Source: Catellatospora sichuanensis (GTDB lineage Bacteria; Actinomycetota; Actinomycetes; Mycobacteriales; Micromonosporaceae). From it: a DNA stretch of 64,000 bases. The stretch is taken from positions 1 to 64,000 of the forward strand of contig NZ_VIQO01000046.1 of assembly GCF_007483665.1 (NCBI RefSeq), written 5' to 3'. Both the position numbers and the translations under genes were made by a program. Below, piece after piece: positions 904 to 50,282 of this stretch (position 1 is its first letter; the number at the start of each line of letters is the position of its first letter). Below the pieces are notes generated by a model. That model did not search any database, was not told the DNA's origin, and worked only from the letters and a program-made list of their open reading frames with translations.

Positions 904-1203
904 GGACGAGCGTCGATCTAATGCCGATCCATCGGCCGAGGTCGAGATCGGTCAACAGTTGTGCCAGGTCATGCGGGCTGCTTGTGGATGCCCGCCGACT
1001 TCTGCTAATGCGGATGGTGTTGACTGCGACTGTTTATGACCGGGTCCGATAACACATTTTCGCGCGCTGAATTCGTTGGTATCCGCAAAGTATTGTCGGG
1101 GAAGGTGTCATGGCGCCCATCGCGCGCCGGTCGCATGCAGGGAATGGACCGGCATGAAGAGACGGCACCCTTGGCAACCCACAGGGCGAGAGCCGGCCGG
1201 CCG

Positions 1204-5834: not shown

Positions 5835-7334
<1,500 letters not shown>

Positions 7335-7405: not shown

Positions 7406-9223
7406 GTGGCATTCACATTGCGGCGGACGTCGACGCGTCTGCTCGCCCTGGCGGTGGGCCTCTCATGCCTGGCGGCATCGGTTCCGCGTACGGCCCTCGC
7501 GGACAACCCGATCGTGCAACACGTGTACACCGCCGACCCCGCGCCGCTGGTCCACAACGGCCGGGTCTACCTGTACACCGGACACGACGAGGACGGCTCG
7601 ACCTACTTCACGATGCGCGACTGGCGCGTCTGGTCGTCGTCGGACATGGTGAACTGGACAGACCACGGATCGCCGATGAACCTGGCGACGTTCAGCTGGG
7701 CCAGCTCCGACGCCTGGGCAGGACAGGCCGTCTACCGCAACGGCAAGTTCTACTGGTACGTGCCGGTGCGGATGGCCAACGGGTCGAACGCCATCGGGGT
7801 CGCGGTCGCGGACAGCCCGACCGGACCGTTCCGCGACGCGCTCGGCCGTCCGCTGATCCAGAACGCTGAGATCGACCCGACCGTCTTCATCGACACCGAC
7901 GGCCAGGCGTACCTGTACTACGGCAACCCGCGCCTATGGTACGTGCGGCTCAACGCCGACATGATCTCGTACTCGGGCAGCCCGACCCAGATATCGCTGA
8001 CCACCGCGGGATTCGGCAGCCGCAGCGGAGACGCGAACCGGCCGACCCTGTACGAGGAAGGACCGTGGGTCTACAAGCGCAACAACCTCTACTACATGGT
8101 GTACGCGGCGAAGTGCTGCTCTGAGTTCATCGCCTACTCCACCTCGCCCGGCCCGACCGGGCCGTGGACGTATCGCGGCACCATCATGCCCACCCAGGGC
8201 GGCAGCTTCACCAATCACGCCGGTGTCATCGACTTCAACGGCGGCTCGTACTTCTTCTACCACAACGGCGCGCTGCCCGGCGGCGGTGGCTTCACCCGGT
8301 CGGTGGCGGTGGAGAAGTTCAGCTACAGCAGCGACGGCACCATCCCGACGATCAACATGACGGCCGCCGGTGCGCCGCAGGTCGGCACGCTCGACCCCTA
8401 TGTACGCCAGGAGGCGGAGACCGTCGCCTGGGGCAGCGGCATCGAAACCGAGCCCGCGGGCGAGGGCGGGATGAACGTCGGCTGGATCGACAACGGCGAC
8501 TACATCAAGGTCAAGGGAGTGGCGTTCGGGGCCGGTGCCAGTTCGTTCACGGCCAGGGTGGCCTCGGGAGCAAGCGGCGGCCGAATCGAGGCGCGGGTGG
8601 ACAGCGCGACCGGAACGACTGTCGCGACCTGCACCGTGCCGGGCACCGGCGGCTGGCAGACCTGGACCACGGTGTCGTGCGCGGTGACCGGCGCGACCGG
8701 CACCCACGACCTGTACCTGCGCTTCACGGGCGGCAGCGGATACCTGTTCAACGTGAACTGGTGGCAGTTCACCACCGGCCAGGCCACCGGGTACCCGACC
8801 GGCTACCGCCAGCTCGTCATCGGCAACAACGGCCTGTGCGTGGATGTGAGCGGCATGTCCACCGCCGCCGGTGCGGCGATCGTCCAGGGGACCTGCAGCG
8901 GGCAGAACAGCCAGAAGTTCCAGTTCGTACCGGTCTCGGGCGGCTATGGCCGACTGCAGGCCCAGCATTCGGGCTACGACGTGGCGGTCGCCAACAGCTC
9001 TACTGCCGCCGGAGTCCTCAACATCATCCAGCAGGTGCCCAACAGCGCGGCGAACAGCCTGTGGCTGCCGGTCCGGCAGTCCGACGGCTCGTACTCGTTC
9101 CGGAACCAGAACAGCGGACTGTGCCTGGACGTGTACGGCGCCAACAGCACCGTCGGCCAGCAGCTCGATCAGTGGCAGTGCAAGAACGCGCCCGGCACCA
9201 ACCAGGACTTCACCCCTCGCTGA
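7406..9223 (+). CDS. Secreted GH43 arabinofuranosidase/xylosidase with CBM6 and trefoil module
   Basis: A secreted five-bladed beta-propeller glycosidase, most like arabinoxylan arabinofuranohydrolases. The signal peptide is 1-32. The GH43 triad is visible: Asp44 (YTADPAP), Asp157 (AEIDPTVF) and Glu218 (YEEGPWV). A CBM6-like module spans about 330-455 (VRQEAETVAW, IDNGDYIKV, FNVNWWQF), and a C-terminal trefoil (about 465-605) carries degenerate QxW repeats, less regular than the neighbouring CBM13s. GTG 7406 has GGAG seven bases upstream. It lies in the operon between two esterases, so side-chain removal and ester cleavage would be co-expressed. Confidence 0.88.
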   Translation: MAFTLRRTSTRLLALAVGLSCLAASVPRTALADNPIVQHVYTADPAPLVHNGRVYLYTGHDEDGSTYFTMRDWRVWSSSDMVNWTDHGSPMNLATFSWASSDAWAGQAVYRNGKFYWYVPVRMANGSNAIGVAVADSPTGPFRDALGRPLIQNAEIDPTVFIDTDGQAYLYYGNPRLWYVRLNADMISYSGSPTQISLTTAGFGSRSGDANRPTLYEEGPWVYKRNNLYYMVYAAKCCSEFIAYSTSPGPTGPWTYRGTIMPTQGGSFTNHAGVIDFNGGSYFFYHNGALPGGGGFTRSVAVEKFSYSSDGTIPTINMTAAGAPQVGTLDPYVRQEAETVAWGSGIETEPAGEGGMNVGWIDNGDYIKVKGVAFGAGASSFTARVASGASGGRIEARVDSATGTTVATCTVPGTGGWQTWTTVSCAVTGATGTHDLYLRFTGGSGYLFNVNWWQFTTGQATGYPTGYRQLVIGNNGLCVDVSGMSTAAGAAIVQGTCSGQNSQKFQFVPVSGGYGRLQAQHSGYDVAVANSSTAAGVLNIIQQVPNSAANSLWLPVRQSDGSYSFRNQNSGLCLDVYGANSTVGQQLDQWQCKNAPGTNQDFTPR

Positions 9224-19004: not shown

Positions 19005-21052
<2,048 letters not shown>

Positions 21053-24082: not shown

Positions 24083-25627
24083 CTAGGGTGCCAACGGCGG
24101 TCGTGCGCGAAACGAACACTCGGTGTCGAAGTCGGCGGTTCCGTCAGCGGCAAGGTCGACCCACAGTTCGGTTCCCCGGCGATGCACGAACCAGCCGGGG
24201 TAGTTCCGGGACTCGAGCAGTATCGCCCCGTCGAGGTCGGCGGGGCGGACGCAGAATGTCGCGTCGCCCCGGAACAGGTCGGTGTCGTCCGCGGGGCTCA
24301 GCAGCAGCCGCCACGACAAATGGCGCAGGTAGCGACCGTCGCTCGCCCGCAGCGACACACACTTGACGTCAGCAAGGCCCGCCACGACTGTGAAGGTGGC
24401 CTGCCGGCGTGCCGGTGTACCGGCGGTGGCCGTCACGGGCGAGAACACGGCGAGATCCGCGGCGGTGGTGACGAACAGCCCGGCGTCGTTCGCCGCTTCC
24501 AGCGAGGTCAGGCCGATCGCCAGCAGACCGGCGGGGCTGCGCGAGGGCGTCGGCCGCCGAGGGCCGGGTGTACGGCTGGGGCTGGGCGGGCGAACGGCAG
24601 GGCTGCGCGCGGGCGTCGCGACGGCCGCCGGCGGCGACAGGACAGCCGGCAGTGGAGGGGGAGTTGTCGCAGGCCAGGTGATCACGGCGACCGTGGCGCC
24701 CACCACCACGGTGCCCGTCACGACCGCTGCGGCGACCTTGGGGACGGCGAGGGCCTTGGCCAGGTGGCCGAGCACTCCCGCTTTCGCGGCCCCGGCCAGG
24801 GCCACCGAGGATGCCACGGTCGCCGTTCCGGCCTTGCCGAGCACGGCGGCGGTGAGCGCGACCGGCACGGGCAGCAGCGCGAGGCCCATCAGCAGTTTGT
24901 CGGCGGCCATCAGCTGAGCGGCTGCCGGATCGCAGATCGCGCAGCCGCGGACGTGCCGTGCCAGACGTTTGCGCAGTACCGAGGACGGCACGCCGTCCCA
25001 GTCGGCGACCAGCAGGTCCAATTCGCCGCATCGGGGCCGGGTGTCGAGCGCGGCCAGCAGCGCCCGGCACTGCTCCAACTGCTGGCGCATCCGCTGCACG
25101 CGCACCCCGGCGTGGGCGACACTGACTCCCGCGGCGGCCGCCAACTCGGTTCGCGTCAGCCGCCCGGCGAGTTCCAGCCACCACAGTGACAGCAGCACGC
25201 GGTCTTCGTCGTCGAGCCATCGTGCGGCCTGTGCTGCCTGGCGCCGCTGCGCGGCGATGCCCAGGCGCAGCAATGTCAGCCCTTCGAACGAACCGTCGGC
25301 GTCAGGGAACTCGGACAGCCCGGCCAGATCGCCGGCACGGGGCTCGGAACTCCGCAGCCGCTGCAGGTGGTTGCTGATCTGACGGACCGTGATGGTGCCC
25401 ACCCACGCGCGAAAGGTGGCCGGGTCGCGCAGGTCCGGCAGGTCGCGGATGACACGCACCATCGTTTCCTGCACGACGTCGTCGACGTCGGCATCGGCGT
25501 CGACGGCCCTGCGCACGATGGTGTAGACGAACGGCAGGTACGCCTCGATCAGGACGTCGAGCGCTCGCCGGTCGCCGGCCTGCGCCGCGACGATGAGTGC
25601 GGCGTCGTCTGTGCTGTGGGGTGGCAT
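24083..25627 (-). CDS. ECF sigma factor fused to zinc anti-sigma motif, membrane helix and CBM42 (AbfB) domain
   Basis: A 514-residue one-piece signalling protein. Sigma region 2 (about 10-85, ALDVLIEAYLPFVYTIVRRA, DDVVQETMVRVIRDL) and region 4 (about 130-188, ELAAAAGVSVAHAGVRVQRMR) are followed by an anti-sigma-type zinc site H225-x3-C229-x2-C232 (RHVRGCAIC), hydrophobic stretches around 245-282 and a clear membrane helix at about 298-318. A Pro/Ser/Arg-rich outer linker (320-366) leads to a C-terminal AbfB trefoil (about 368-514) with repeats such as YLRHLSWRLLLSPADDTDLFRGDATFCVRP and NYPGWFVHRR. AbfB/CBM42 modules bind arabinofuranose side chains. The reading frame is continuous. I infer that arabinoxylan binding outside is transmitted to the sigma domain inside. 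ATG 25627 is where sigma homology begins. Confidence 0.85.
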   Translation of the reverse strand: MPPHSTDDAALIVAAQAGDRRALDVLIEAYLPFVYTIVRRAVDADADVDDVVQETMVRVIRDLPDLRDPATFRAWVGTITVRQISNHLQRLRSSEPRAGDLAGLSEFPDADGSFEGLTLLRLGIAAQRRQAAQAARWLDDEDRVLLSLWWLELAGRLTRTELAAAAGVSVAHAGVRVQRMRQQLEQCRALLAALDTRPRCGELDLLVADWDGVPSSVLRKRLARHVRGCAICDPAAAQLMAADKLLMGLALLPVPVALTAAVLGKAGTATVASSVALAGAAKAGVLGHLAKALAVPKVAAAVVTGTVVVGATVAVITWPATTPPPLPAVLSPPAAVATPARSPAVRPPSPSRTPGPRRPTPSRSPAGLLAIGLTSLEAANDAGLFVTTAADLAVFSPVTATAGTPARRQATFTVVAGLADVKCVSLRASDGRYLRHLSWRLLLSPADDTDLFRGDATFCVRPADLDGAILLESRNYPGWFVHRRGTELWVDLAADGTADFDTECSFRARPPLAP

Positions 25628-25749: not shown

Positions 25750-25831
25750 GAGCCGTGACCGGACATCCGTTCCGCGCTGACGCGGCGCCCCACCGGAGGA
25801 GCGTGGTGCGCGGGCCGTTTCCGTTGACATC

Positions 25832-25850
25832 ACACATCATATGACTTAGC
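25832..25850. promoter_or_regulatory. 19-bp element, inverted copy of 5562-5580
   Basis: Read on the minus strand it is GCTAAGTCATATGATGTGT, identical over 19 bases to the element upstream of the esterase operon 20 kb away. It lies 57-75 bp before the solute-binding-protein start, at the expected promoter position. Confidence 0.55.
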
Positions 25851-25906
25851 TTTGCTGCATTCCATCGGACGGCCGGCTCTTCCGGCCATTCTCGAGATGA
25901 GAATCA

Positions 25907-27172
25907 ATGAAGCAGCGAGTACTCTGGCCGGCCGCCGTCGCGGTGGCGCTGGCCTTGGCGGGCTGTGGAAGCGCCACCGGAAACGAACCCTCGTCCAACT
26001 CCGCGAGCGGCAAACTCGTGGTGTGGGACTGGAAGTCCAGTGACAAGACCGCAACGGCCTATGTGGAGAAGGCGAAGGCCGACTTCGCCAAGAAGCACCC
26101 CGGCGTGACCGTCGAGTTCGTCGCCCAGCCGTTCGACCAGTACTACACGCTGCTCGGGGCGGCGATCCAGGCGGGCAAGGGCCCTGACGTCATGATGTTC
26201 AACGGCGGTGGCCAGATCCGCGACCGGGTCGACGCCCTGGTGCCGCTGGACCAGTACGTCGGCCCGGACAAGGAGCGCCTGGCCGGCTGGGACGCGTTCA
26301 CCAAGGACGGCAAGGTCTACGCCTCACCGGTGACCCTGCAGGGCCACCCGATCTACTACAACAAGGACCTCTACAAGAAGGCCGGTCTGGACCCGCAGCA
26401 GCCGGCGACGACCTGGGACGGGTTCACCGCAGACTGCGCCACCATCACCAAGGCGACGAAGGCCAGCTGCTTCGCCCTCGGCAACAAGGAGGGCATCGGC
26501 ATCCAGTTCTTCCTGTCGGCGTTCGGCTCGGGCATCCTGACGCCGCAGGAGTACGACAGCTGGATCGCCGGCAAGCGCGACTGGAACTCCCCGAACGTCA
26601 AGAAGGTCTTCCAGCTGTGGAAGGACGTCAACGACCGCGGCCTCAACAGCAAGGGCGGCAACTCGACCACCATGTTCACCGACGCCTTCGGCATCTTCCA
26701 GTCGGCCAAGGCGACCAACATCATCGGCCTGATGTCCGACATCGGGCACTGGAAGGACTTCAACGAGTTCATCGGCCCCGACAACCTCGGCGTGATGAAG
26801 TCGCCGGTCATCACCACCGGAGCGACGCCCAGCCTGCCGTTCGACGGCGGCATCGGCTACGCGGTCGCCAAGTGGACCAAGGACCCGGTCCTCGCCGCCG
26901 ACCTGGTGCGCTCGCTGACCTCCACCGACGCGCTGGCCACCTTCTACGCCAATGCCGGCGCGGTCGTCTCCGACACCACCGTGAAGACCACCGACGGCGG
27001 GGCGGCCGTCACCGCCATCGTCGCCGACCTCAAGACCGGCAAGCCCGCTCTGCACGTGGCGCTGTCGTCGAAGACCATCGAACTGATGGGGCGGCTGTCC
27101 CAGCAGATCCTCGAAGGGTCCGTCAGCGTCGACGCCGCGCTCAAGCAGCTCGGCGAGTCGGACCGGAGCTGA
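25907..27172 (+). CDS. ABC sugar transporter solute-binding lipoprotein (CUT1 family)
   Basis: A 421-residue extracellular binding protein. The lipoprotein signal ends in LALAGC (Cys20). The mature part is a family-1 extracellular solute-binding protein (KLVVWDWKSSDKTA, VMMFNGGGQIRD, YASPVTLQGHPIYYNKDLYKKAGLD). It should capture a mono- or oligosaccharide for the two permeases downstream. No ATPase gene is in the operon, as is common in actinomycetes that share a single MsiK-type ATPase. ATG 25907 is preceded by GAGATGAGA. From context the ligand is probably L-fucose or a fucosylated oligosaccharide; that is inference. Confidence 0.88.
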   Translation: MKQRVLWPAAVAVALALAGCGSATGNEPSSNSASGKLVVWDWKSSDKTATAYVEKAKADFAKKHPGVTVEFVAQPFDQYYTLLGAAIQAGKGPDVMMFNGGGQIRDRVDALVPLDQYVGPDKERLAGWDAFTKDGKVYASPVTLQGHPIYYNKDLYKKAGLDPQQPATTWDGFTADCATITKATKASCFALGNKEGIGIQFFLSAFGSGILTPQEYDSWIAGKRDWNSPNVKKVFQLWKDVNDRGLNSKGGNSTTMFTDAFGIFQSAKATNIIGLMSDIGHWKDFNEFIGPDNLGVMKSPVITTGATPSLPFDGGIGYAVAKWTKDPVLAADLVRSLTSTDALATFYANAGAVVSDTTVKTTDGGAAVTAIVADLKTGKPALHVALSSKTIELMGRLSQQILEGSVSVDAALKQLGESDRS

Positions 27173-27204
27173 CCAGTGCCGCTCGGTGAATCTCCACCGC
27201 TGTT

Positions 27205-27232
27205 GGCCCGCCCCGCTCGGGCGGGGCGGGCC
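27205..27232 (+). terminator. Intra-operon hairpin with TCGG tetraloop
   Basis: A perfect 12-bp all-GC stem (27205-27216 with 27221-27232) closes a TCGG loop in the gap between binding-protein and permease genes. Such elements commonly trim or stabilise the upstream mRNA, giving more binding protein than permease. Confidence 0.7.
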
Positions 27233-27277
27233 TATGGAACAGACCCCGCGCCACGCAGGCGCTCCCGGACGGGCCCG

Positions 27278-28138
27278 ATGTCGGCCGAACGCCTGGCCCC
27301 GTTCGTGCTGATCGCTCCTGCCGTACTGATCATCGTGCTGTTCCGGCTCTGGCCGCTGCTGCTCGGCGTCAACTTCTCCTTCACCGGCGACGGCGACCGC
27401 AACGGGGCGGCGGTCGGCCTGGACAACTACGCGGAACTGTTCGCCGACCCGCTGTTCCGGGGCGCGCTGCGCAACGTCGGGTGGCTCGTGTTGCTGCTCC
27501 CCGTCGCGGTCGCGATCCCCGGCATGCTCGCGACGTTCATCTACCTGCGCGTGCCGGGCCACCGGCTCTACCGCAGCGTCTACTTCTTCCCCGCGGTGCT
27601 CTCCCCGGTGATCGTCGGTTCCATCTTCAACCTCCTGCTGTCCTTCGACGGCCCGCTCAACAGCCTGCTCGACGTGGTGGGGATCGGACCGGTCGACTGG
27701 CTGGGGGACTCCAAGGTCGCGCTGTTCACCGTGGTCGGCGTGCACGTCTGGGCGACGTTCGGGATGGCGCTGGTGGTCTTCCTGTCCGGGTTCGCGACGC
27801 TGGACCCCGCGCTGCTGGACGCCGCCCGCTCCGACGGGGCGGCCCTGCCGCAGGTGATCCGGCACGTGATCATCCCGGGCCTGTCCCGCACGATCCAGTT
27901 CGTATTCGTGACGACCATGATCGGGATGCTGACCTCCATGTTCGGCCTGATCTACGTGATGACCAGCGGAGGTCCGGGCGGCTCGACCTACCTGCCGGAG
28001 TACTACATCTGGATCCAGCAGGGCCAGATGAACCGCCCGGCGTTCGCGTCGGCGGCCTCCACGGTGCTGTTCCTGGTCATGCTCGTCGTAGGGCTCGCGC
28101 AGGTCAGCTTCCTGCGACGCACCGGCAAGGAGGACTGA
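27278..28138 (+). CDS. ABC sugar transporter permease (MalF type)
   Basis: A 286-residue inner-membrane subunit with six predicted helices. The coupling EAA loop is DPALLDAARSDGAALPQVIRHVIIPGL. I prefer ATG 27278 because upstream in-frame codons run through the hairpin at 27205-27232 and there is no start codon between the hairpin and 27278. Its TGA shares one base with the ATG of the next permease, so the two are translationally coupled. Confidence 0.88.
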   Translation: MSAERLAPFVLIAPAVLIIVLFRLWPLLLGVNFSFTGDGDRNGAAVGLDNYAELFADPLFRGALRNVGWLVLLLPVAVAIPGMLATFIYLRVPGHRLYRSVYFFPAVLSPVIVGSIFNLLLSFDGPLNSLLDVVGIGPVDWLGDSKVALFTVVGVHVWATFGMALVVFLSGFATLDPALLDAARSDGAALPQVIRHVIIPGLSRTIQFVFVTTMIGMLTSMFGLIYVMTSGGPGGSTYLPEYYIWIQQGQMNRPAFASAASTVLFLVMLVVGLAQVSFLRRTGKED

Positions 28139-28965
28139 TGCTCGGCGCTCGGATGAGCCGGTGGCTGATCGCCGTACCCATGGCGCTGCTCGCTCTGGCG
28201 ACCGTCTACCCGCTGGTCTTCACCGCCAACGCGGCGATGAAGACCCGTCGCGACTACATCCTGGACAGGTTCAGCCTGGCGGACACCCTGCGCTGGGACA
28301 ACATCAGCACCGCCTGGACCACCGCCGGCACCGCGCGATACTTCTTCAACTCGGTGCTCGTGGTGGCCGGCGCGGTGACACTGCTGCTGCTGTTCGGGTC
28401 CATGGCCGGCTTCGCGTTGAGCCACCTGCGGTTCCGCGGCTCGCGGGCACTCCTGCTGGGATGCCTCGCCGCGCTGTTCGTGCCCTTCCAGGTGATCATG
28501 GTGCCGCTCGTGCGGACCATGGCCGACACCGGGCTGGTCGACACCTACCCGGGACTGATCCTCGCCTACACGGCGCAGTTCCTGCCCTTCACGATCTACC
28601 TGATGACCAGCTACTACAGCGCGATACCTGCCGAGATCGTCGACGCGGCGCGCATCGACGGCAACACCCCCTACGGCGTATACCGCAGGATCATGCTCCC
28701 GATCGGGCGGCCGGCCCTGCTGTCGGTGGGTGTGCTCAACGCGCTGTTCTGCTGGAACGACGTGCTCATCGCGCTGCTCATGATGCCGTCCGCGGAGCAC
28801 CGCACCCTCATGGTCGGGGTGACGTCGCTGCGCGGTCAATACACGGCCGACATCCCCACCTTCGCCTCAGGGGTGCTGATCGCAGCCGTGCCCGTACTGG
28901 CGGTCTACCTGTTCTTCCAGCGCCGGATCGCCGACGCTGTCACCGCCGGTTCGACGAAAGGCTGA
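28138..28965 (+). CDS. ABC sugar transporter permease (MalG type)
   Basis: A 275-residue second permease with six helices and the EAA motif EIVDAARIDGNTPYGVYRRIMLP. A perfect AAGGAGGA ribosome site lies seven bases before ATG 28138, inside the end of the previous gene. The stop is followed after one base by the ATG of the dehydratase, so import and first cytosolic steps are in one transcript. Confidence 0.9.
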   Translation: MLGARMSRWLIAVPMALLALATVYPLVFTANAAMKTRRDYILDRFSLADTLRWDNISTAWTTAGTARYFFNSVLVVAGAVTLLLLFGSMAGFALSHLRFRGSRALLLGCLAALFVPFQVIMVPLVRTMADTGLVDTYPGLILAYTAQFLPFTIYLMTSYYSAIPAEIVDAARIDGNTPYGVYRRIMLPIGRPALLSVGVLNALFCWNDVLIALLMMPSAEHRTLMVGVTSLRGQYTADIPTFASGVLIAAVPVLAVYLFFQRRIADAVTAGSTKG

Positions 28966-28966
28966 C

Positions 28967-30115
28967 ATGCGGATCACTGGGTATCGCGCCCTGAACACCG
29001 TGCAGGAATGGGGCCGTGCCGTCGGCGACGCCAACGGCGTCTACGCCGACGGCCTCACCGAGGTGCCGCTGGTCCTGGTCACCACCGACGAAGGCATCAC
29101 CGGCGTCGGGATGGGCCCGCACGTGGAACTGGACGCGGTCTTCGCCGCGATCGACGGCGAGGACCCGCGGGGCGTCACGGCGCTCTACGACCGCATGCTG
29201 CGGCAGATGTTCAAGGCCGGACATGCCGGAACGGTCTTCGGTACCATCGGCGCGTTCGACACCGCGCTGTGGGACATCAAGGCCAAGGCGGCGGGGGAGC
29301 CCCTGTGGCGTCTGCTGGGCGGACGCGACCGCGTCGTGCCGGCCTATGCCTCCGGGCTGGACATCGACCTCGACGACGAGGAGCTGGTCGGCACCTACCA
29401 GGCATACGCCGAGCATGGCCTGCGTGCGGCCAAGCTCAAAGGCGGCCTGGACGTCGAACGCGACCGGCACCGGCTGAGCCTGGTGCGCGATGTGCTGACC
29501 GAGGCCGGCGGCGGGTCGCGGCCCGGCCTCATGCTCGACGCGAACGAGTGCTGGAGCCGCAAGCAGGCTGTCCGGCACGTCGCGGAGCTGGAGCACACGC
29601 TGGATCTGATCTGGGTCGAGGAGCCGGTGCGGCGGTGGGACGCCGAAGGTATGGCCGCGGTGGGCCGCGGGGTCCGCGCCGCGGTCGCCAGCGGCGAGAA
29701 CCTCAGCGGGCTGGAGCAGTTCCGGCCACTGCTGGCGGCCGGAGCTCTGGACATCGTGCAGACGGCATCGGTGTGGGGGGTGACCCACTTCCTGCGCGTC
29801 GCCGCGCTGGCACACGGCCACGATCTGCCCGTCAGCCCGATCGGCACCAACCCGGTCGGCCTCCTGCACGCGGCGGCGTCGGTGCCCAACCACATGGCCA
29901 GTGAGCTGCAGGTCCTGCAGCCGCCCGTCGGCGTCGCTCTCGACCTGCGCATCGAGAGCGGGGCCTTCATCCTCGGCGACTCACCCGGTCTAGGGATCGT
30001 CGTGGACGAAGAGCTGATCGGCGCCTGCGAGCTCAAACCCGCCACCGTGTCGTTCGACGGGCCGGGCGTCCGGCCGGAGCGGGCCGGTCAGCGGCTGCTG
30101 GCGGCGGCCGGCTGA
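28967..30115 (+). CDS. Enolase-superfamily (mandelate racemase-like) sugar-acid dehydratase
   Basis: A 382-residue enzyme expected to dehydrate an aldonate, by context L-fuconate, to the 2-keto-3-deoxy acid. It has an N-terminal capping domain (1-125) and a barrel with metal ligands Asp in LMLDANECW, Glu in WVEEPV and Glu in VASGENL, plus the KxK base motif in AAKLKGG. The segment where relatives have their catalytic His (PHxxG) reads SPIGTNPVG, with no His, and QTASVWG replaces the usual QPDxSRxGG. Acid-sugar dehydratase is a reasonable family-level call, but the stereochemistry and even activity type are uncertain. It is the last gene of the importer operon, before a terminator. Confidence 0.75.
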   Translation: MRITGYRALNTVQEWGRAVGDANGVYADGLTEVPLVLVTTDEGITGVGMGPHVELDAVFAAIDGEDPRGVTALYDRMLRQMFKAGHAGTVFGTIGAFDTALWDIKAKAAGEPLWRLLGGRDRVVPAYASGLDIDLDDEELVGTYQAYAEHGLRAAKLKGGLDVERDRHRLSLVRDVLTEAGGGSRPGLMLDANECWSRKQAVRHVAELEHTLDLIWVEEPVRRWDAEGMAAVGRGVRAAVASGENLSGLEQFRPLLAAGALDIVQTASVWGVTHFLRVAALAHGHDLPVSPIGTNPVGLLHAAASVPNHMASELQVLQPPVGVALDLRIESGAFILGDSPGLGIVVDEELIGACELKPATVSFDGPGVRPERAGQRLLAAAG

Positions 30116-30152
30116 CCGGCGTGGTGCGGAGGAAGGCGAGCACCCTTCCACA

Positions 30153-30189
30153 GGCGGGTGCGGTGGCCGGTCGGGCTGCCGCACCCGCC
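30153..30189 (+). terminator. Terminator of the importer-dehydratase operon
   Basis: An 11-bp perfect stem (30153-30163 with 30179-30189) extended by wobble pairs lies 38 bases after the dehydratase stop. Confidence 0.6.
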
Positions 30190-30319
30190 CTGCCTTGCGC
30201 GGTGCCGCCCGCCTTGTCTGCAGCAGGCAAGGACCCCGAACGGGGATGCGGCAATGCCCGATGGTCACACATAACACTTTCGTGCGAGAATTTTGGTAGA
30301 GGGACCCTAACCGGGCAGT

Positions 30320-30339
30320 GACATATGACATCGTACCTG
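30320..30339. promoter_or_regulatory. GntR-type operator upstream of the GntR gene
   Basis: GACATATGACATCGTACCTG has a perfect left half of the ideal palindrome and a partial right half. A second degenerate core, TGTGACGTCGTG, lies at 30339-30350. It is placed about 60 bp before the regulator's TTG start, consistent with autoregulation. A -10-like TACACT follows at 30361-30366. Confidence 0.55.
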
Positions 30340-30395
30340 TGACGTCGTGAGAGCTTGTCCTACACTTACGGCGACTATTGCTCCTGGAGGACGCG

Positions 30396-31205
30396 TTGAC
30401 GCGGCAGTTCTTGGCGGATCCATTCGGCGTACCTGTGGCGCCAGCCGCGGAGGTCGCTCCGCCGCGTGTCCGCGGAACCAAGCTGGGCATCAACGTGGTG
30501 CAGCAGATCGTCAACGACATCGTCCGGGGAGTGCTGAATCCGGGCTCGACGCTGCCGCCCGAGGCGGACCTGTGCGACCAGTTCGGGGTCAGCCGCACCG
30601 TGATCCGCGAGTCGGTCAAGGTCGTGCAGGAGAAGGGCCTCGTGCGCATCGAGCACGGCAGGGGCACCCAGGTCACCGATCCGCGCCAGTGGAACCTGCT
30701 CGACGACGTCGTGCTCACCGCCATCATCGCCCACGACGCCAACCTTTCCTTCCTGGACGAGCTGGTCGCCACCCGGACCGCTCTCGAAGCCGACATGGCG
30801 GCCACCGCGGCCGTCTCGCGCGCGGGTGAAGAGAAGCTCCGCATCAGCGCAGCGCTCGAGCTCATGCGCTCGAAGATCAATAATGTCGCGGAGTTCGCCG
30901 CCGCGGACGCGCACTTCCACGACATGGTCATGGCCGCGTCCAGCAACCGGCTCGGACGCGCCATCGTGAACAGCATTCACGACAAGGCGCGAGGGAGCAT
31001 GCGCTACCACGGCGAATACAACGAGGCGGTGATGCGACGCACGTTGGACGAGCACCAGGCCGTGCACGACGCCATCATGGCCAAGAACGCCGAGGCCGCC
31101 GCCGCCGCCATGCGTGCCCACATCACCGGCTCGTGGAGCCGTCGCCGGCCGGTCCCGGAGACTGATGCTCCCGCGGCGGCCACCCGCCGGCAGGCGACCC
31201 GCTGA
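30396..31205 (+). CDS. GntR-family regulator, FadR/FCD subfamily
   Basis: A 269-residue regulator. The winged helix-turn-helix (about 25-95) has LPPEADLCDQFGVSRTVIRESVKVVQEKGLVRIEHGRGT. The FCD ligand domain (about 105-245) carries a metal/acid-binding pattern with His in DAHFHDMV and DEHQAVHDAI. FCD members usually bind sugar acids or their aldonates, which fits control by a fuconate-type intermediate. I prefer TTG 30396, five bases after GGAGG, over TTG 30378. I propose that it binds the recurrent palindrome found upstream of the surrounding operons and itself. Confidence 0.88.
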   Translation: MTRQFLADPFGVPVAPAAEVAPPRVRGTKLGINVVQQIVNDIVRGVLNPGSTLPPEADLCDQFGVSRTVIRESVKVVQEKGLVRIEHGRGTQVTDPRQWNLLDDVVLTAIIAHDANLSFLDELVATRTALEADMAATAAVSRAGEEKLRISAALELMRSKINNVAEFAAADAHFHDMVMAASSNRLGRAIVNSIHDKARGSMRYHGEYNEAVMRRTLDEHQAVHDAIMAKNAEAAAAAMRAHITGSWSRRRPVPETDAPAAATRRQATR

Positions 31206-31450
31206 CGTAGTACCCAGGCAGACGCCACGGTCTTCGGCCGTCGGTCGAGTGGCGCTGTCCGACCCTTCCACCAGTCTGTCTGCCTCCGGTCGCCTGCGTT
31301 CCCGTGCGCCGGATCCATGTTGCATCCCCAGGTCGGCACGATATTTGCGCGAAGGTCTTGCTAAGACGTCACACGTATGATGTTCTTTCGAGGCATTGAG
31401 CGCGCGTCGCGCGCGGTTGATGCCAAGTGATCGCCGTGTCGGGCGCTGCT

Positions 31451-31488
31451 GTGTCCGGAACTGCAGGGGTTCTTACAGTTCCGGACGC
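31451..31488 (+). terminator. Hairpin 1 after gntR
   Basis: An 11-bp perfect stem (31453-31463 with 31476-31486), extendable by two pairs with one wobble, encloses a 12-base loop. Confidence 0.55.
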
Positions 31489-31504
31489 CCCGACACCACA
31501 AGAC

Positions 31505-31541
31505 GACGCCGGCCCGCACCCGCCGCGTGCGGGCCGGCGTC
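31505..31541 (+). terminator. Hairpin 2 after gntR
   Basis: A perfect 15-bp stem (31505-31519 with 31527-31541) with a seven-base loop, 16 bases after hairpin 1. It is one of the longer uninterrupted stems in the window. Confidence 0.65.
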
Positions 31542-31773
31542 CCATCTACTGGCATGAAGACCGGCCAGCGCCGATCTTCACTATGATTCGGGGCGCCAAC
31601 ACAGTGCATGAGCTGGTTTCCGGCTGGTCGGCGACAGGCCGGCCAACCGTGTACTCGGCGGTTTCCGTGAGTGTCGCAGTTCAGCATGTCGGCATCGGAC
31701 AGCTGCCCTGCGCCGCCGGAATCACGCGGCAGCCGTCGGTTCGGCTCGCTTACGGCGACGACAGGCGGCCCAG

Positions 31774-32634
31774 ATGATCATCGATGCGCACATGCAGCTG
31801 TGGACGGCGGACAGCCCCTGGCTCGCGGCGGCAGAATACGCCCCCATCCGGCGTGACCACGGGATCGACGAACTGCGGGCGACCCTGGCCGAGTCGGATG
31901 TGGATGCATGCGTGCTGGTCGAGGCCGACGGCACCAGCGCCGCGGACACGACGCGGTGCCTGGAGGTGGCAGCCTGGACCCCGCAGGTGCTGGGCGTGGT
32001 GGGATGGGCGCCGCTGACCGACCCGGATCTCGGCGACGTCATCGGCAAGCACCGGGCCGGGCCCGGCGGTCAGCGGCTCGTCGGCCTGCAGGAGCGCGCG
32101 TACGAGAAGGCCGATGACTTCCTCGACGATCCGGCGGTGCGTTCCGGGCTGGCGGTGGTCGGCGAACTCGGGCTGGTCATCGAGCTGGCGGCGCGCACTG
32201 AACAGCTGCCATCCGTGGCGCGCGTGGCCGAGACCATGCCCCAGGCGCGTTTCGTGCTGCAGCAGGCCGGCTCACCGTGGATCACCGGAGGCGCGGAAGG
32301 TCTGGCCGAATGGCAGCGCCTCATCCAGCCGGTGGCTGAGTGCGGCAACGTGCGGGCCAAGCTCGGCGGCCTGCTGACCCTCGCGCACTGGGACCGGTGG
32401 TCGGTCGACGATCTACGGCCCTTCGTGGACCACGCGATCGAGGTGTTCGGCCCAGGGCGACTCATCTTCGGCTCGGACTGGCCCACGTGCCGCCTGGCGG
32501 CCACCCACGCCGAGTCGCTACAGGCGATCAGTTCTCTGCTGGGCGGCATACACCCGGCTGTCTTCTCGCTGACCGCCGTCGGCACCTACCTGCTCGACAC
32601 CGGCGACCTGCTGCGCCGTCCCCGTCAGAGCTGA
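31774..32634 (+). CDS. COG3618 amidohydrolase-family protein with altered metal site
   Basis: A 286-residue TIM-barrel protein related to L-fucono-/L-rhamnono-lactonases. The family opening DAHxHLW reads IDAHMQLW, so the second His is Gln. The VLDHLGxP segment reads VLQQAGSPW, losing both Asp and His, whereas the C-terminal GSDWP motif is kept (LIFGSDWPTC). Its neighbour 32711-33601 keeps all of these. It may therefore be a metal-free lactonase, a sugar-lactone binding protein or a diverged hydrolase with another substrate. ATG 31774 has only a weak AGGCGG upstream. It is convergent with the canonical paralogue. Confidence 0.75.
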   Translation: MIIDAHMQLWTADSPWLAAAEYAPIRRDHGIDELRATLAESDVDACVLVEADGTSAADTTRCLEVAAWTPQVLGVVGWAPLTDPDLGDVIGKHRAGPGGQRLVGLQERAYEKADDFLDDPAVRSGLAVVGELGLVIELAARTEQLPSVARVAETMPQARFVLQQAGSPWITGGAEGLAEWQRLIQPVAECGNVRAKLGGLLTLAHWDRWSVDDLRPFVDHAIEVFGPGRLIFGSDWPTCRLAATHAESLQAISSLLGGIHPAVFSLTAVGTYLLDTGDLLRRPRQS

Positions 32635-32710
32635 CCCGGACGGACGCGGCAGCCGCGGCGGCCGCGACCGGCGGCTCGCCCCCGCCGTGGCCGGGACGAG
32701 CCGCGGACGA

Positions 32711-33601
32711 TCAGGCGGCTGCTGCTGCCAGCCGCAGCGGATCGATGCCGTACACCCGAGCCGCCGTGGCGGCGAGCACGTCGTTCCAGCCGCCGGCGTC
32801 GAGGTCGGCCAGGCTGCGCTGGACGATGTCCAGCGTGCGGCCGTACGGTTCGTGGAGCAGGCAGATGGGCCAGTCGCCGCCGTACATCAGCCGGTCCGAC
32901 CCGAAGAGGTCGAACGCTGTGCGGATGTACGCCCCCGCCCGCGCCGGAGCGCCGTCGTCCGCGACGCGCCCCGGGTACAGCCCCGAGAGTTTGACGCAGA
33001 CCCGTGGGTGTCCGGCGAGGACCTCCAGTGTCTGCCGCCACTGCTCGGCCTGTGCGGGGTCGTCGTGCAAGGGCGGTGCCCCGAGGTGGTCGAGCACGAG
33101 GTGCAGCCCGGGATGACGGCGCGCCACCTCGGCCGCGACGGTCAGCGCCGCGGACCCCGCCGCGACGAAGTCGAACGGCACACCGTGCTGTTCCAGCAGG
33201 TCCAGGCCGGCATCCACGGTACGGCCGAGGATCCAGTGCGGATCGGGCCGCTCGTGGATGAGGCAGCGCACGCCGGCGAAGAGCGGATGCTCACGCAGGT
33301 GCGCCAGTCTGCTTGCGGCGAGGGCGGGCCGGTCCAGGGGCAACCAGCCGACGACACCCACGACCTGGCGGTGCGAACTCGCGGTCTCGAACATCAGGTC
33401 GGTGTCGAAGTCGCTGTCGGCCGACTGCACCAGCACGACCGCGGTGACTCCCCGGCCGGCGAGTTCGGGCAGCACCTCGGGTAATGCCATGGCCCGGTTC
33501 ACGGGCGCCAGGCCGGAACCCAGCCACGGGTAGACGCCACGCGAGGGATCCCATACGTGCAGGTGCGCGTCGACGATGGTGCCGAGGGGAGGACTGGTCA
33601 T
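32711..33601 (-). CDS. L-fuconolactone-type hydrolase (COG3618 amidohydrolase)
   Basis: A 296-residue cytosolic lactonase, expected to open L-fucono-1,5-lactone (or a related aldonolactone) produced by the aldo/keto reductase. Canonical metal motifs are present: VDAHLHVWD at the N-terminus, LVLDHLGAPP in the middle and RLMYGGDWPIC near the end. The length is normal for the family. ATG 33601 has GGAG upstream. It is divergent from the alcohol dehydrogenase with a GntR-type palindrome midway between. L-rhamnonolactonase is the main alternative; the nearby fucosidases favour fucose. Confidence 0.83.
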   Translation of the reverse strand: MTSPPLGTIVDAHLHVWDPSRGVYPWLGSGLAPVNRAMALPEVLPELAGRGVTAVVLVQSADSDFDTDLMFETASSHRQVVGVVGWLPLDRPALAASRLAHLREHPLFAGVRCLIHERPDPHWILGRTVDAGLDLLEQHGVPFDFVAAGSAALTVAAEVARRHPGLHLVLDHLGAPPLHDDPAQAEQWRQTLEVLAGHPRVCVKLSGLYPGRVADDGAPARAGAYIRTAFDLFGSDRLMYGGDWPICLLHEPYGRTLDIVQRSLADLDAGGWNDVLAATAARVYGIDPLRLAAAAA

Positions 33602-33733
33602 GGGGCAGCTCCGACGGTGAAGTCAACAGGGGGCGGCGATCTCCGGGGGTCGACGGTGGCGTGCGGCTTGCCGTGGGGTGGCTCGCAGGCCCGGGCATCG
33701 ACCGCTCGGTCGTGACCCGTTGTCATCCCGTTA

Positions 33734-33753
33734 AACATATGATGTCATATCTG
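33734..33753. promoter_or_regulatory. GntR-type operator between lactonase and alcohol dehydrogenase
   Basis: The 20-bp segment contains ATATGA-TG-TCATAT (33737-33750), the best central inverted repeat of the proposed family. It lies 133 bp from each divergent start codon, so one bound dimer could control both. Confidence 0.65.
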
Positions 33754-33885
33754 GGCTGTCGACGCCGCAGGCTTCGGCGCTGAGCGAGGGCCGCTGTCGA
33801 CGGCGCGACGGCGGCCCTCGCGACACGCCCGTCCAGCCGTCGCGGCCCACGCTCGGCAGCAGAGCCCTGCCAGGGAAGGAACAAC

Positions 33886-34911
33886 ATGCGCCAAGCCGTC
33901 TACCACGGCGACCGTCGCCTGAGCGTCATCGACGTGCCGGAGACGCCACCGGCCGCCGGGCAGGTGCGGATCGACGTCGCCTTCACCGGGATCTGCGGCA
34001 CCGACCTGCACATCCTGCACGGTGACATGGACCAGCGGGTCGCCGTCCCGGCCGTGCTCGGACACGAGATGTCGGGCACGGTGGCCGAAGTCGGCGACGG
34101 GGTGGACGGCTGGACCCCCGGCGAGCCCGTCACCGTCCTACCCGTACTGCCCTGCGGCGACTGCACGACCTGCCGCGCCGGACACGGACACGTCTGCCCC
34201 CGGCTGACTTTCATCGGTATCGACAGCACAGGATCCATGCAGCAGCGCTGGAACGTGCCCGCACGAGCACTGGTACGCCTGCCGGCAGACCTGGATCTCG
34301 CGCACGGCGCGCTGGTCGAGCCGACCGCGGTGGCCGTGCACGACGTGCGGCGCAGTGCCCTGACCAGCGGCGAGCACGCCGTCGTGGTCGGCGGCGGCCC
34401 GGTCGGTCTGCTGATCGCCGTGGTCGCCCGGCACGCCGGCGGCCACGTCCTGATCGTGGAACCGAACCCGCGGCGGCGAGCGGTGGCCGAGCGCCTCGGC
34501 TTCGCCACCGCGGACCCGGCCGGCCCCGACGTGGCCGCGGCCGTCCACGACTGGACCGGTGGCGACGGCGCCGCGGTGGCGTTCGAGGTGTCCGGAGCGG
34601 CAGCGGCGGTCGCCACGGCCGTGGACTGCCTGGCCCCGCGCGGGCGATTGGTGATGGTCGCGATCCACGCCGCGCCGCGGGAGGTCAACCTGCACCGCTT
34701 CTTCTGGCGTGAACTCACGATGCTCGGCGCGCGGCTCTACAGCGCGGACGACATGGTGACCGCCGTGGCGATGGTGGCCTCCGGCCGGATCCCCGCCGCC
34801 GACCTGATCACCACGGTGGAGCCGCTGCACCGGGTCGGAGACGCGTTCGCCGCACTGGAATCCGGAGCCGGAGTGATGAAGGTTCTGCTCGACTGCGCAG
34901 GCCCGCGATGA
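33886..34911 (+). CDS. Zinc-dependent medium-chain alcohol/polyol dehydrogenase
   Basis: A 341-residue MDR dehydrogenase. Catalytic-zinc residues are in GICGTDLH and GHEMSGTVAEVG, the structural-zinc cysteines in PCGDCTTCRAGHGHVC, and the nucleotide site is VVGGGPVGLLIAVVARHAGG. The family oxidises threonine, sorbitol, butanediol and sugar-derived alcohols. In this operon it may oxidise a fucose-derived intermediate or lactaldehyde; the step is not determined. ATG 33886 follows AGGGAAGGAA. Its stop overlaps the SDR start by four bases. Confidence 0.85.
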   Translation: MRQAVYHGDRRLSVIDVPETPPAAGQVRIDVAFTGICGTDLHILHGDMDQRVAVPAVLGHEMSGTVAEVGDGVDGWTPGEPVTVLPVLPCGDCTTCRAGHGHVCPRLTFIGIDSTGSMQQRWNVPARALVRLPADLDLAHGALVEPTAVAVHDVRRSALTSGEHAVVVGGGPVGLLIAVVARHAGGHVLIVEPNPRRRAVAERLGFATADPAGPDVAAAVHDWTGGDGAAVAFEVSGAAAAVATAVDCLAPRGRLVMVAIHAAPREVNLHRFFWRELTMLGARLYSADDMVTAVAMVASGRIPAADLITTVEPLHRVGDAFAALESGAGVMKVLLDCAGPR

Positions 34912-35675
34912 CCGCCGCGATGTTCGACCTCACCGGCAAGCTCGCCGTGGTCACCGGCGCACGACGCGGCATCGGCCTGGCCATCGCCGACGCGCTCGCC
35001 GCCGCCGGGGCCGACATCATCGCCGTGAGCGCCCACCTCGAACCCGACGGAAGCGAGGTCGCCCGGCGGGTGACGGCCCACGGCAGGCAGTGCGAGGTCC
35101 GCGCCGTCGACCTCGCCGGCCGTGAGGCCGTCGCGGCGCTGGCCGCAGACCTGACGTCCGGGCAGCGCCCAGTCGACATCCTGGTCAACAACGCCGGCAC
35201 CATCGCGCGGGCGCCGGCGGCCGAGCACAGCGACGAGGACTGGGACCACGTCCTGGCAGTCGACCTCACCGCACCGTTCATCCTTGCCCGCGAAGTCGGC
35301 CGGGCGATGCTGGCCCGGCGCACCGGAAAGATCATATTCACGGCGTCGCTGCTGAGCTTCCAGGGCGGGATCACCGTGCCGGGATACGCCGCGGCGAAGT
35401 CCGGCATCGCCGGGCTGACCAGGGCACTGGCCAACGAATGGGCGGCCCACGGGGTCAACGTGAACGCCATCGTGCCCGGCTACATCGCCACCGACAACAA
35501 CCAGGCCCTGCGGGACGATCCGAGGCGCAACGCCGCCATCGTCGACCGCATCCCGGCCGGACGGTGGGGCACCCCCGCCGATCTCGGCGGCGTCGCCGTC
35601 TTCCTCGCCTCGGCCGCCTCCGACTACGTGCACGGCACACTCGTGCCCGTCGACGGCGGCTGGCTGGGCCGCTGA
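34908..35675 (+). CDS. SDR oxidoreductase, KduD / 2-keto-3-deoxy-L-fuconate dehydrogenase-like
   Basis: A 255-residue classical SDR. The cofactor motif is TGARRGIG, the NNAG motif is intact, and the catalytic Ser-Tyr-Lys set is visible (FTASLLSFQGG, GYAAAKSG). The C-terminal segment GYIATDNNQALRDDPRRN and DRIPAGRWG is diagnostic of the KduD/2-deoxygluconate dehydrogenase group. In the oxidative L-fucose route an enzyme of this type oxidises 2-keto-3-deoxy-L-fuconate to the 2,4-diketo acid. It is coupled to the upstream alcohol dehydrogenase through ATGA overlap. Confidence 0.85.
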   Translation: MTAAMFDLTGKLAVVTGARRGIGLAIADALAAAGADIIAVSAHLEPDGSEVARRVTAHGRQCEVRAVDLAGREAVAALAADLTSGQRPVDILVNNAGTIARAPAAEHSDEDWDHVLAVDLTAPFILAREVGRAMLARRTGKIIFTASLLSFQGGITVPGYAAAKSGIAGLTRALANEWAAHGVNVNAIVPGYIATDNNQALRDDPRRNAAIVDRIPAGRWGTPADLGGVAVFLASAASDYVHGTLVPVDGGWLGR

Positions 35676-35742
35676 CCCAGCCGCGGAGTTCGAACCCGGG
35701 CCGACGCGCCCACCGCGACCCATACCACCGAAGGAGCGCCCG

Positions 35743-36069
35743 ATGCAGGTGATCGGATTGCACACGCGGCTCAAGACCGGTCGGGAAGCCGACTACGACC
35801 GCATCCACGCGGTGCTGTCGCCGGAGCACGAACAGGCCCTGCGCGACAGCGGGGTCCACTCGTGGCACATCTGGCGCGACGGCCTCGACCTGTTCCACAC
35901 CGTGGTGTGCGACGACTGGGCGGACATGGAGTCGTCGATGGCGCGGCTGGCGCTGACCGCACGCTGGCACGAGGTCATCCACCCGCTGCTCGACATGTCC
36001 GTCTCCCAGCGCGGTCCGCTGCCGCTGGTCTGGCAACTGCCGGAGACGGCGCAGCGCCACGCTTCCTGA
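35743..36069 (+). CDS. L-rhamnose/L-fucose mutarotase family protein
   Basis: A 108-residue protein of the RhaM/COG3254 family, which interconverts alpha and beta anomers of 6-deoxy-L-sugars so that the next enzyme gets its preferred anomer. Family landmarks are LKTGREADYDRIHAVLSPEHEQALRDSG near the N-terminus and the WHIWRDG and DWADMESSMARLA segments. AAGGAG lies seven bases before ATG 35743. It stands directly before the sugar dehydrogenase. Members of this family act on rhamnose or fucose, so it cannot distinguish them alone. Confidence 0.85.
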   Translation: MQVIGLHTRLKTGREADYDRIHAVLSPEHEQALRDSGVHSWHIWRDGLDLFHTVVCDDWADMESSMARLALTARWHEVIHPLLDMSVSQRGPLPLVWQLPETAQRHAS

Positions 36070-36102
36070 GACTCTCATCGCGCCGACCATGAGGAGCCGC
36101 CC

Positions 36103-37080
36103 GTGACGCCACCAGCCCACAGCATGCCCACCCGGCCGCTGGGCCGCACCGGCCTCGACGTGACCGTGCTCGGGTTCGGTGCCGGGGGCATCGGCAACCT
36201 CGGCTACGCCAGGCCCGACCGCGACGCCGCGCAGGCCGTCGACGCGGCCTGGGCGGCGGGGATACGGCTGTTCGACACCGCTCCCCACTACGGGCTCGGC
36301 CTGTCGGAGCGCCGGCTCGGCGAGGCCCTGCGCGGCCGCTCTCGGGACGAGTACGTGCTGTCCACCAAGGTGGGTCGCCTGCTGCGCCCCCATCCCGCCC
36401 CGACCGGCTCCGACCTGGCAGCCGGCGGCTTCGACGTCCCCGACGATTTGGTGCGGGTCTGGGACTTCAGCGCCGACGGGGTGCGGCGCAGCCTGGAGGA
36501 GAGCCTGGTCCGGCTCGGCGTCGACCGGGTCGACATCGTCTACGTCCACGACCCCGACCATGCCGTCGACGACGCGATCCGCAGCGCCATCCCGGCGCTG
36601 ATCGCACTGCGTGAGCAAGGCGTGATCGGCGCGGTCGGCGTGGGCATGAACCAGTGGCAGGCACCCCTGCGGATGGTCCAGGAGACCGACCTCGACGTCG
36701 TGATGCTCGCCGGCCGCTACACCCTGCTCGACCGGTCCGGTGAGCAGCTGCTGGACGAGTGCGCCCGGCGCGGCGTGGCCGTCGTCAGCGCGGCACCGTT
36801 CAACTCGGGCATCCTGGCGCGGCCGTGGCCGCCCGACGGCGCGAACTACGACTACGGTGCGGCTCCCGACGAGGTGCTCCAGCACGCCCGCCGACTGGCG
36901 CGGACCTGCCAGGCGCACGGCGTGCCGCTGCCCGCCGCCGCGCTGCAGTTCCCGCTGCGCCACCCGGCCGTGGCCACCGTGGTGGCCGGCATGCGGTCGG
37001 CGGAGCAGGTGGCAGCTGCCGCCGGCGGCATCCGGGCGTCCGCGCCGGACAGCCTCTGGCAGGCAGCCGTCGGGATGTGA
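36103..37080 (+). CDS. Aldo/keto reductase, L-fucose (D-threo-aldose) 1-dehydrogenase type
   Basis: A 325-residue AKR. The catalytic tetrad is represented by Asp and Tyr in FDTAPHYGLGLSE, Lys in LSTKVGRLL and His in YVHDPDHAVDD. The length and the RLLRPHP and DFSADGVRRSLEESLVRLG segments match D-threo-aldose 1-dehydrogenases, which oxidise L-fucose to L-fuconolactone with NAD(P). GTG 36103 has AGGAG eight bases upstream; an internal ATG at 36124 is less well supported. It is the last gene of the operon, before a 20-bp hairpin. Confidence 0.87.
   Translation: MTPPAHSMPTRPLGRTGLDVTVLGFGAGGIGNLGYARPDRDAAQAVDAAWAAGIRLFDTAPHYGLGLSERRLGEALRGRSRDEYVLSTKVGRLLRPHPAPTGSDLAAGGFDVPDDLVRVWDFSADGVRRSLEESLVRLGVDRVDIVYVHDPDHAVDDAIRSAIPALIALREQGVIGAVGVGMNQWQAPLRMVQETDLDVVMLAGRYTLLDRSGEQLLDECARRGVAVVSAAPFNSGILARPWPPDGANYDYGAAPDEVLQHARRLARTCQAHGVPLPAAALQFPLRHPAVATVVAGMRSAEQVAAAAGGIRASAPDSLWQAAVGM

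Positions 37081-48530: not shown

Positions 48531-50282
<1,752 letters not shown>

Follow-up and report, generated by a model that had tools for sequence, protein, structure and literature searches.

A fused ECF sigma factor with a C-terminal CBM42 trefoil in Catellatospora sichuanensis, a probable one-protein sensor of arabinofuranosyl-decorated polysaccharide

The window analyzed here (64,000 nucleotides of contig NZ_VIQO01000046.1 of Catellatospora sichuanensis) encodes a 514-amino-acid protein in which an ECF sigma factor, a zinc-type anti-sigma motif, a membrane helix, a proline-rich linker, and a C-terminal CBM42 (AbfB) trefoil follow one another in this order. We consider it probable that the protein is a membrane-bound one-protein ECF sigma factor that senses arabinofuranosyl-decorated polysaccharide, most likely arabinoxylan, and that its sigma part, freed by proteolysis or by a change of shape, drives xylan and arabinose-side-chain genes.

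The gene lies on the minus strand, with an ATG start at 25627 and a stop codon ending at 24083 (514 codons). The preliminary description of this DNA had named the frame but no strand. A longer frame from the ATG at 25840 would give 585 amino acids, and the alignments of homologues begin near 25627, not at this upstream ATG. A chance ORF was ruled out, because relatives match over the full length. Together with the domains and the motif described below, these whole-length relatives bear out the earlier claim that sensor, anti-sigma motif, and sigma factor reside in a single chain. In the AlphaFold model (built from 28 sequences; mean pLDDT 76, pTM 0.45), sigma region 2 and a four-helix region 4 each form a unit, the zinc segment is short and helical, and most of the trefoil exceeds pLDDT 90. 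Residues 263–347 were modelled at low confidence, and the mutual placement of the domains is not to be trusted because the pTM is only 0.45.

Two profiles identify the N-terminal part as an ECF sigma factor. Sigma70_r2 matched residues 26–92 (E 4.6e-15), and the sigma-70 ECF superfamily model TIGR02937 scored 61.3 bits over residues 22–186, above its curated cut-off of 42.9. Region 2 (residues 1–94; 25346..25627, minus strand; pLDDT mostly above 90 for residues 11–80) therefore stands as originally claimed. Region 4 (residues 114–196; 25040..25288, minus strand), claimed at the same time, is recognized by the TIGR02937 match and by the four helices in the model, but no match to the 514-residue protein was obtained from the Pfam region-4 models. 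The Foldseek matches for the model include sigma-E (1or7) and AlgU (8z6g); VIA-align hardly probed the sigma part, since trefoil matches fill its list. The following segment (residues 197–247; 24887..25039, minus strand) contains C200-x24-H225-x3-C229-x2-C232. The ZAS motif is defined as His-x3-Cys-x2-Cys plus an upstream ligand, and the segment has both. The four ligands are identical in all 28 aligned rows among the relatives listed, including six rows that lack a sensor. The HxxxCxxC zinc site seen at first thus holds as a motif, but the zf-HC2 profile gave only 13.3 bits against a cut-off of 22.2; we therefore call the segment ZAS-like rather than a member of the Pfam family.

Two stretches of the protein, about residues 245–263 and 298–316, have a hydropathy above 2.3. 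We take the second alone (about residues 298–319; 24671..24736, minus strand) as the predicted membrane helix, in agreement with the helix noted before; its hydropathy is 2.33 over residues 298–316, and residues 298–322 carry no charge. The first stretch could provide an alternative topology. Five Arg/Lys and one Asp/Glu are found in the segment preceding the helix, and the charge rule for topology is not clean because the linker following the helix has six Arg/Lys. We read the predicted inside-to-outside orientation from the proline-rich linker (residues 323–367; 24527..24661, minus strand; low pLDDT) and from the type of the C-terminal domain.

The C-terminus is a CBM42 domain by both profile and fold. 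AbfB matched residues 375–507 (E 3.2e-30; 24107..24505, minus strand), and the model shows a trefoil there, so that the AbfB trefoil claimed for residues 368–514 was found, and the proposed arabinofuranosyl-type binding domain is borne out as a family assignment. Among PDB sequences, the nearest is the CBM42 carried by the anti-sigma factor RsgI5 (9fnk, E 4.4e-15), which also heads the Foldseek list (TM 0.92 relative to the target, rmsd 1.4); in VIA-align, the GH54 arabinofuranosidase 1wd3 leads (Z 24.8), and 9fnk takes sixth place (Z 22.9). According to the available text on AtAbf43C, arabinose in the beta pocket is contacted by H70, Y73, and D89 (PMC12493170), whose counterparts in the window protein are, by spacing, H436, W439, and D455. 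In alignment A2, from which L009, L037, L071, and L091 were excluded, as they were from the model, the beta-pocket His and Asp are both present in 22 of the 22 AbfB-bearing rows listed. Counted by column, Asp accounts for 22 of 22 letters and His for 22 of 23, the exception being a stray Tyr of the sensorless row L063; position +3 is Leu in 13, Trp in 5, and Phe in 4 of the AbfB-bearing rows listed. The gamma-pocket Asp, mapped by spacing like that of the alpha pocket, occurs in 4 of 23 letters in the rows listed, and the alpha-pocket Asp in none of 21. The beta residues are kept and the gamma and alpha Asp are mostly lost; thus the window trefoil seems to retain one putative sugar pocket of three, the beta pocket with H436 and D455. 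Elsewhere in the same genome, an AbfB domain with 47% identity to window residues 338–511 is attached to a likely membrane anchor in a protein that has no sigma part (L012:12275-13120, minus strand, contig C18) and whose gene adjoins a YidC-like (60KD_IMP) gene. This anchored protein is a possible co-receptor or decoy.

A survey for the same architecture across actinomycetes, which had been suggested in the preliminary description, was carried out as one scan of public genomes. The best 80 of at least 216 relatives were used, all of which bear actinobacterial titles. The 9.45-Mb genome of the window itself encodes a full-length paralog of 63% identity, a paralog of 41% identity with a Pel9A-like C-terminus, and weaker relatives. 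Among the best 80 of at least 216 relatives, the window protein, and the two own-genome paralogs, the C-termini comprise AbfB (26, one frameshifted), a domain without a match (22), CAP (15), Glyco_hydro_cc (13), and a Pel9A-like domain (1), and 6 proteins have no sensor. The class labels come from BLAST clusters with Pfam run on representatives, and a distant CAP paralog (L011) was excluded; the frameshifted member, L091, has its AbfB part in a different frame. The AbfB-sensor group, which the present analysis adds, occurs in Streptomyces and Micromonosporaceae. When the sensor type was placed on a tree of the sigma parts of the relatives listed, 7 changes were needed, compared with a minimum possible of 6 and a shuffled mean of 48.5. 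The lineages thus keep their sensors, and sensor type tracks sigma lineage.

The other outside domains are diverse. The Pel9A-like beta-helix forms the outside domain of the paralog at L010:7991-10198 (minus strand, contig C3), and this gene is directly followed on its strand by genes for a pectinesterase and a pectate lyase. At L040 and 21 more loci listed, the outside domain is about 210 amino acids long; two representatives gave no Pfam match, and the fold search gave no match at E 0.001 or better. At L048, a locus of this class, the sigma gene and a beta-lactamase-family gene are divergently oriented, and similar secreted-looking ORFs are divergent at several further loci. The outside domain at L038, L055, and L058 is Glyco_hydro_cc by Pfam. 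Two candidate catalytic glutamates (NEPD and TEF) of the L038 domain seem kept by eye, so this sensor may be an active enzyme.

These comparisons bear on the possibility that the trefoil is a mere tether, fastening the cell or the protein itself to plant fibre, with the sigma factor set otherwise, for example by phosphorylation or protein level. The degeneration of two of the three sugar pockets in most rows listed is in line with a tether, and the studied ECF52 member SCO4117 is described, in the available part of the report on it, as phosphorylated and under complex regulation (PMC5826349). Against this stand the one pocket kept in every AbfB-bearing row listed, the close agreement of sensor type with sigma lineage, and the position of the Pel9A-like sensor beside pectin genes. 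We regard a mere tether as unlikely and favor a sensing role for the trefoil.

The six sensorless relatives among the best 80 of at least 216 (L034, L035, L036, L039, L042, and L063) stop about 13 to 120 residues past the zinc motif, and the membrane and sensor parts are absent. They group as a single clade among the AbfB lineages of the tree (97/64). A tblastn search of the six loci found no significant match to the trefoil downstream of the genes. Genes like those of the window transporter operon are located beside them: MR_MLE at all six loci listed, the binding protein at five, and GH95 at four. The gene setting thus persists in a clade that has no sensor, and the sensor is not required in every case. 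By a simple count, dN/dS is 0.21 to 0.44 in three diverged pairs; for close pairs, with few changes to count, the values spread between 0.06 and 2.0, the value of 2.0 (L035/L042) resting on very few. These ratios suggest that the sensorless sigma part is under selection to stay working. The clade also lends some weight to the idea that the zinc segment is the true sensor, of redox state or zinc as in RsrA, and that the outside domain is accessory, since the set of four zinc ligands is complete in the six relatives, which remain next to sugar genes. This idea nevertheless appears quite unlikely: the AbfB-bearing rows listed keep the sensor pocket without exception (22 of 22), and the neighbours are polysaccharide genes, the sole kind of gene that the neighbourhood count covered.

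The gene neighbourhood points to xylan and its arabinose side chains. The GH62, GH43, GH54, and GH10 genes named earlier were each found in the window: a CBM2-GH62 gene identified by its Pfam profile and cut by the contig edge (1..804, minus strand), a GH43-CBM6-ricin trefoil gene (7406..9223, plus strand), a GH10 xylanase gene with a ricin-type trefoil (19349..21052, plus strand; Pfam), and a GH54 arabinofuranosidase gene with a ricin-type trefoil (48549..50282, plus strand). GH62 and GH10 are possible targets. A sugar ABC transporter operon (25907..28965, plus strand) is divergent from the sigma gene and resembles the genes beside the sensorless relatives; its binding protein and first permease were identified by Pfam, and its second permease was recognized solely by its ORF. 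Upstream of the transporter gene, a 43-base segment containing TTGACA (window 25822-25864) is identical in Catellatospora. Window 28967-37080, which encodes an MR_MLE dehydratase, amidohydrolases, a rhaM mutarotase, dehydrogenases, and an aldo/keto reductase, resembles a pathway for the oxidation of deoxysugars and is followed by GH141 and GH95 genes. At window 1-291 and at the end of contig C42 of the same genome, two GH62 genes of near-identical sequence are cut off by the contig ends at one and the same profile position; the assembly was probably interrupted there by a repeat.

Of the 26 AbfB loci, 19 have a GH10 catalytic domain no more than five genes away, compared with 1 of the 50 sister-sensor loci (best 80 of at least 216 relatives plus 3; rough gene calls made in this analysis, domain seeds taken from the window, L091 scored as AbfB). 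By class, GH10 was found in 0 of 22 loci with the unmatched domain, 1 of 15 CAP, 0 of 13 Glyco_hydro_cc, 2 of 6 sensorless, and 0 of 1 Pel9A-like loci listed. The Fisher value for 19/26 against 1/50 is 3e-11, in a test that ignores shared descent. GH10 is the next gene on the same strand in the 14 Streptomyces loci listed and is at +2 in L091; because these form one clade, the count does not represent 19 independent events and the Fisher value is overstated. Other GH10 arrangements beyond this clade are present at L030, L031, L078, and the window. The first gene after the 63% paralog encodes a ricin-GH62 protein. The earlier suggestion that the xylan and arabinose genes are plausible targets is borne out by GH10 near the AbfB loci listed and by GH62 at the paralog and in the window. 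A furanosyl polymer other than arabinoxylan, such as arabinogalactan, pectic arabinan, or the cell-wall arabinan of actinobacteria, is a very unlikely ligand. In its favor, the available text of PMC12493170 describes CBM42 pockets as binding arabinose itself, so the domain would not set the backbone polymer, and GH95, GH141, and GH27 genes also occur in the window; against it, the AbfB loci listed are mostly near GH10, and the paralog is followed by GH62.

A bipartite promoter-like element, GTTAYS-N16/17-GTC, recurs at these loci, with a GYC form before the Streptomyces GH10 genes. The window copy reads GTTATC-N17-GTCGCA with an A-rich lead and faces GH62 (1028..1053, minus strand), 226–232 nt before the candidate starts 804 and 798; the element of the 63% paralog sigma gene is similar to it. 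The form GTTAYS-N15..18-GTC faces sigma within 260 bp upstream in 7 of 15 CAP, 6 of 13 Glyco_hydro_cc, and 20 of 22 unmatched-domain loci listed, amounting to 33 of 50 sister-class loci, compared with 0 of 50 facing away and about 0.5 expected. GTTATC-N15..18-GTCTCC with up to two mismatches faces sigma in 47 and faces away in 4 of these 50 loci. TTTT..GTTACG-N16..18-G(C/T)CTCC faces GH10 in 13 of the 14 Streptomyces sigma–GH10 spacers listed, a post hoc pattern drawn without a control from the same spacers, which are conserved over a longer stretch too. The strict form AAANNGTTAYS-N17-GTC has two copies in the whole genome of the window, both upstream of the paralog (control 0), and the window copy differs from it by one extra base between the A-tract and GTTATC. 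Upstream of sigma in the AbfB class, the element is perfect in 3 of the 25 loci listed, compared with 2 of 25 facing away, and no good element was found upstream of the window sigma gene and GH10 (2 and 3 mismatches, respectively).

In most AbfB loci listed, the same element reads away from the gene as SRTAACNNTTT. There were 26 copies near sigma or before GH10 in 25 AbfB loci listed (1.2 expected; 22 near sigma), 21 in the unmatched-domain class listed (0.4 expected), and none in the CAP or Glyco_hydro_cc loci listed; SRTAACNNTTT also occurs before transporter genes and a GH12 gene. A first orientation, GAC-N17-SRTAAC toward the genes, which came from the AbfB loci, was dropped in favor of GTTAYS-N16/17-GTC because the element faces sigma in the CAP, Glyco_hydro_cc, and unmatched-domain classes. 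Two own-genome patterns each gave 4 matches, 3 of them at the window or the paralog (controls 2 and 1), and an eight-genome pattern gave 33 matches against 24 in the control, only a slight excess; among the 30 loci listed, several lacked a convincing gene. Site L123 in Catellatospora was left out of the targets, because it is 711 nt from the transporter gene, which has its own conserved stretch. One-mismatch copies at GH27 and the gene at 5922 in the window were no better than facing-away controls (3/15, 3/13, and 2/22). The element may serve as a promoter for the sigma factor, or it may consist of paired sites at which a second factor also acts. Separately, CCGGAAGTTTCG is present upstream of GH10 in three places (window 19217-19229, L120, and L122) and may be a repressor site.

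The sensing mechanism that we propose would operate as follows. The external trefoil, judging from its family, its fold, and the one intact pocket, would bind arabinofuranosyl groups. Without ligand, the zinc-type segment would, as its motif implies, keep the adjoining sigma factor inactive at the membrane. Ligand, or load on the long linker, would cause the chain to be cut within or close to the membrane helix, or else to change its shape, and the sigma part would then be freed, by analogy with the proposals for ECF52/53 and with IutY and RsgI. The freed sigma factor would drive GH10 and GH62, probably through GTTAYS-N16/17-G(T/C)C, an element derived by comparison whose polarity is not fully settled. 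More tentatively, and with rather less than even confidence, we suggest that actinobacteria hold modular one-protein polysaccharide switches, in which a related sigma/zinc/membrane chassis carries lineage-specific outside modules (CBM42, Pel9A-like, Glyco_hydro_cc, CAP, and the unmatched domain) and shares the GTTAYS-N16/17-G(T/C)C promoter type, one lineage being sensorless and soluble in the same sugar-gene setting.

The fusion itself, presented at first as the novelty, is not unprecedented. The available texts on ECF52 and ECF53 describe the same layout in actinobacterial proteins, namely a sigma factor, a zinc segment, and one or two membrane helices, with a proline-rich part in ECF52 and with carbohydrate-binding or glycosyl hydrolase domains in some members, and propose proteolytic release (PMC8999054, PMC10766802, PMC5826349). 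The zinc segment (by motif), membrane helix (by hydropathy), proline-rich linker, and carbohydrate-binding domain are all present in the 514-residue protein, which by the described layout is a further ECF52/53-type protein. It differs from SCO4117, whose knockout affected development and antibiotics (PMC5826349, as far as available), in having a CBM42 sensor in place of smart00776. Our literature search found no paper joining a sigma factor with an AbfB domain, the founding classification papers, where an earlier mention is possible, being beyond its reach; the literature that it found pairing an ECF sigma factor with CBM42 concerns Clostridium thermocellum. In the available text of a 2024 review, the predicted carbohydrate domains of ECF52/53 are said to still await experimental validation (PMC10766802). 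With a likely class of ligand, a pocket defined by its residues, candidate target genes, and a tentative promoter, the present locus makes the signal of a fused ECF sigma factor testable, and the protein would be a compact part for arabinose-polymer biosensors.

IutY of Pseudomonas putida (ECF243), named as the only characterized case in the available part of PMC8999054, likewise has its sigma factor fused to a membrane anti-sigma factor and is processed by Prc and RseP. Unlike the window protein, IutY answers the siderophore aerobactin, and that part of PMC8999054 mentions no carbohydrate domain for it. The AbfB/CBM42 arabinofuranosidases (1wd3, 3akf, and 9nxh) share the trefoil fold, but their trefoil serves an enzyme, whereas the alpha and gamma pockets are degenerate in most of the rows listed here. 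RsgI5, which acts with SigI5 in C. thermocellum and whose CBM42 is described in the available parts of PMC4711584 and PMC12203970, is similar in that a CBM42 is joined to a sigma inhibitor. RsgI has an autocleaving periplasmic domain (PMC12203970, as far as available), and a Pfam search to E 1 found neither the RsgI N-terminal nor the periplasmic domain in the 514-residue protein. The partner of RsgI5 is a SigI-type sigma factor that is a protein in its own right, whereas in the protein described here the sigma factor is fused to its CBM42-bearing inhibitor.
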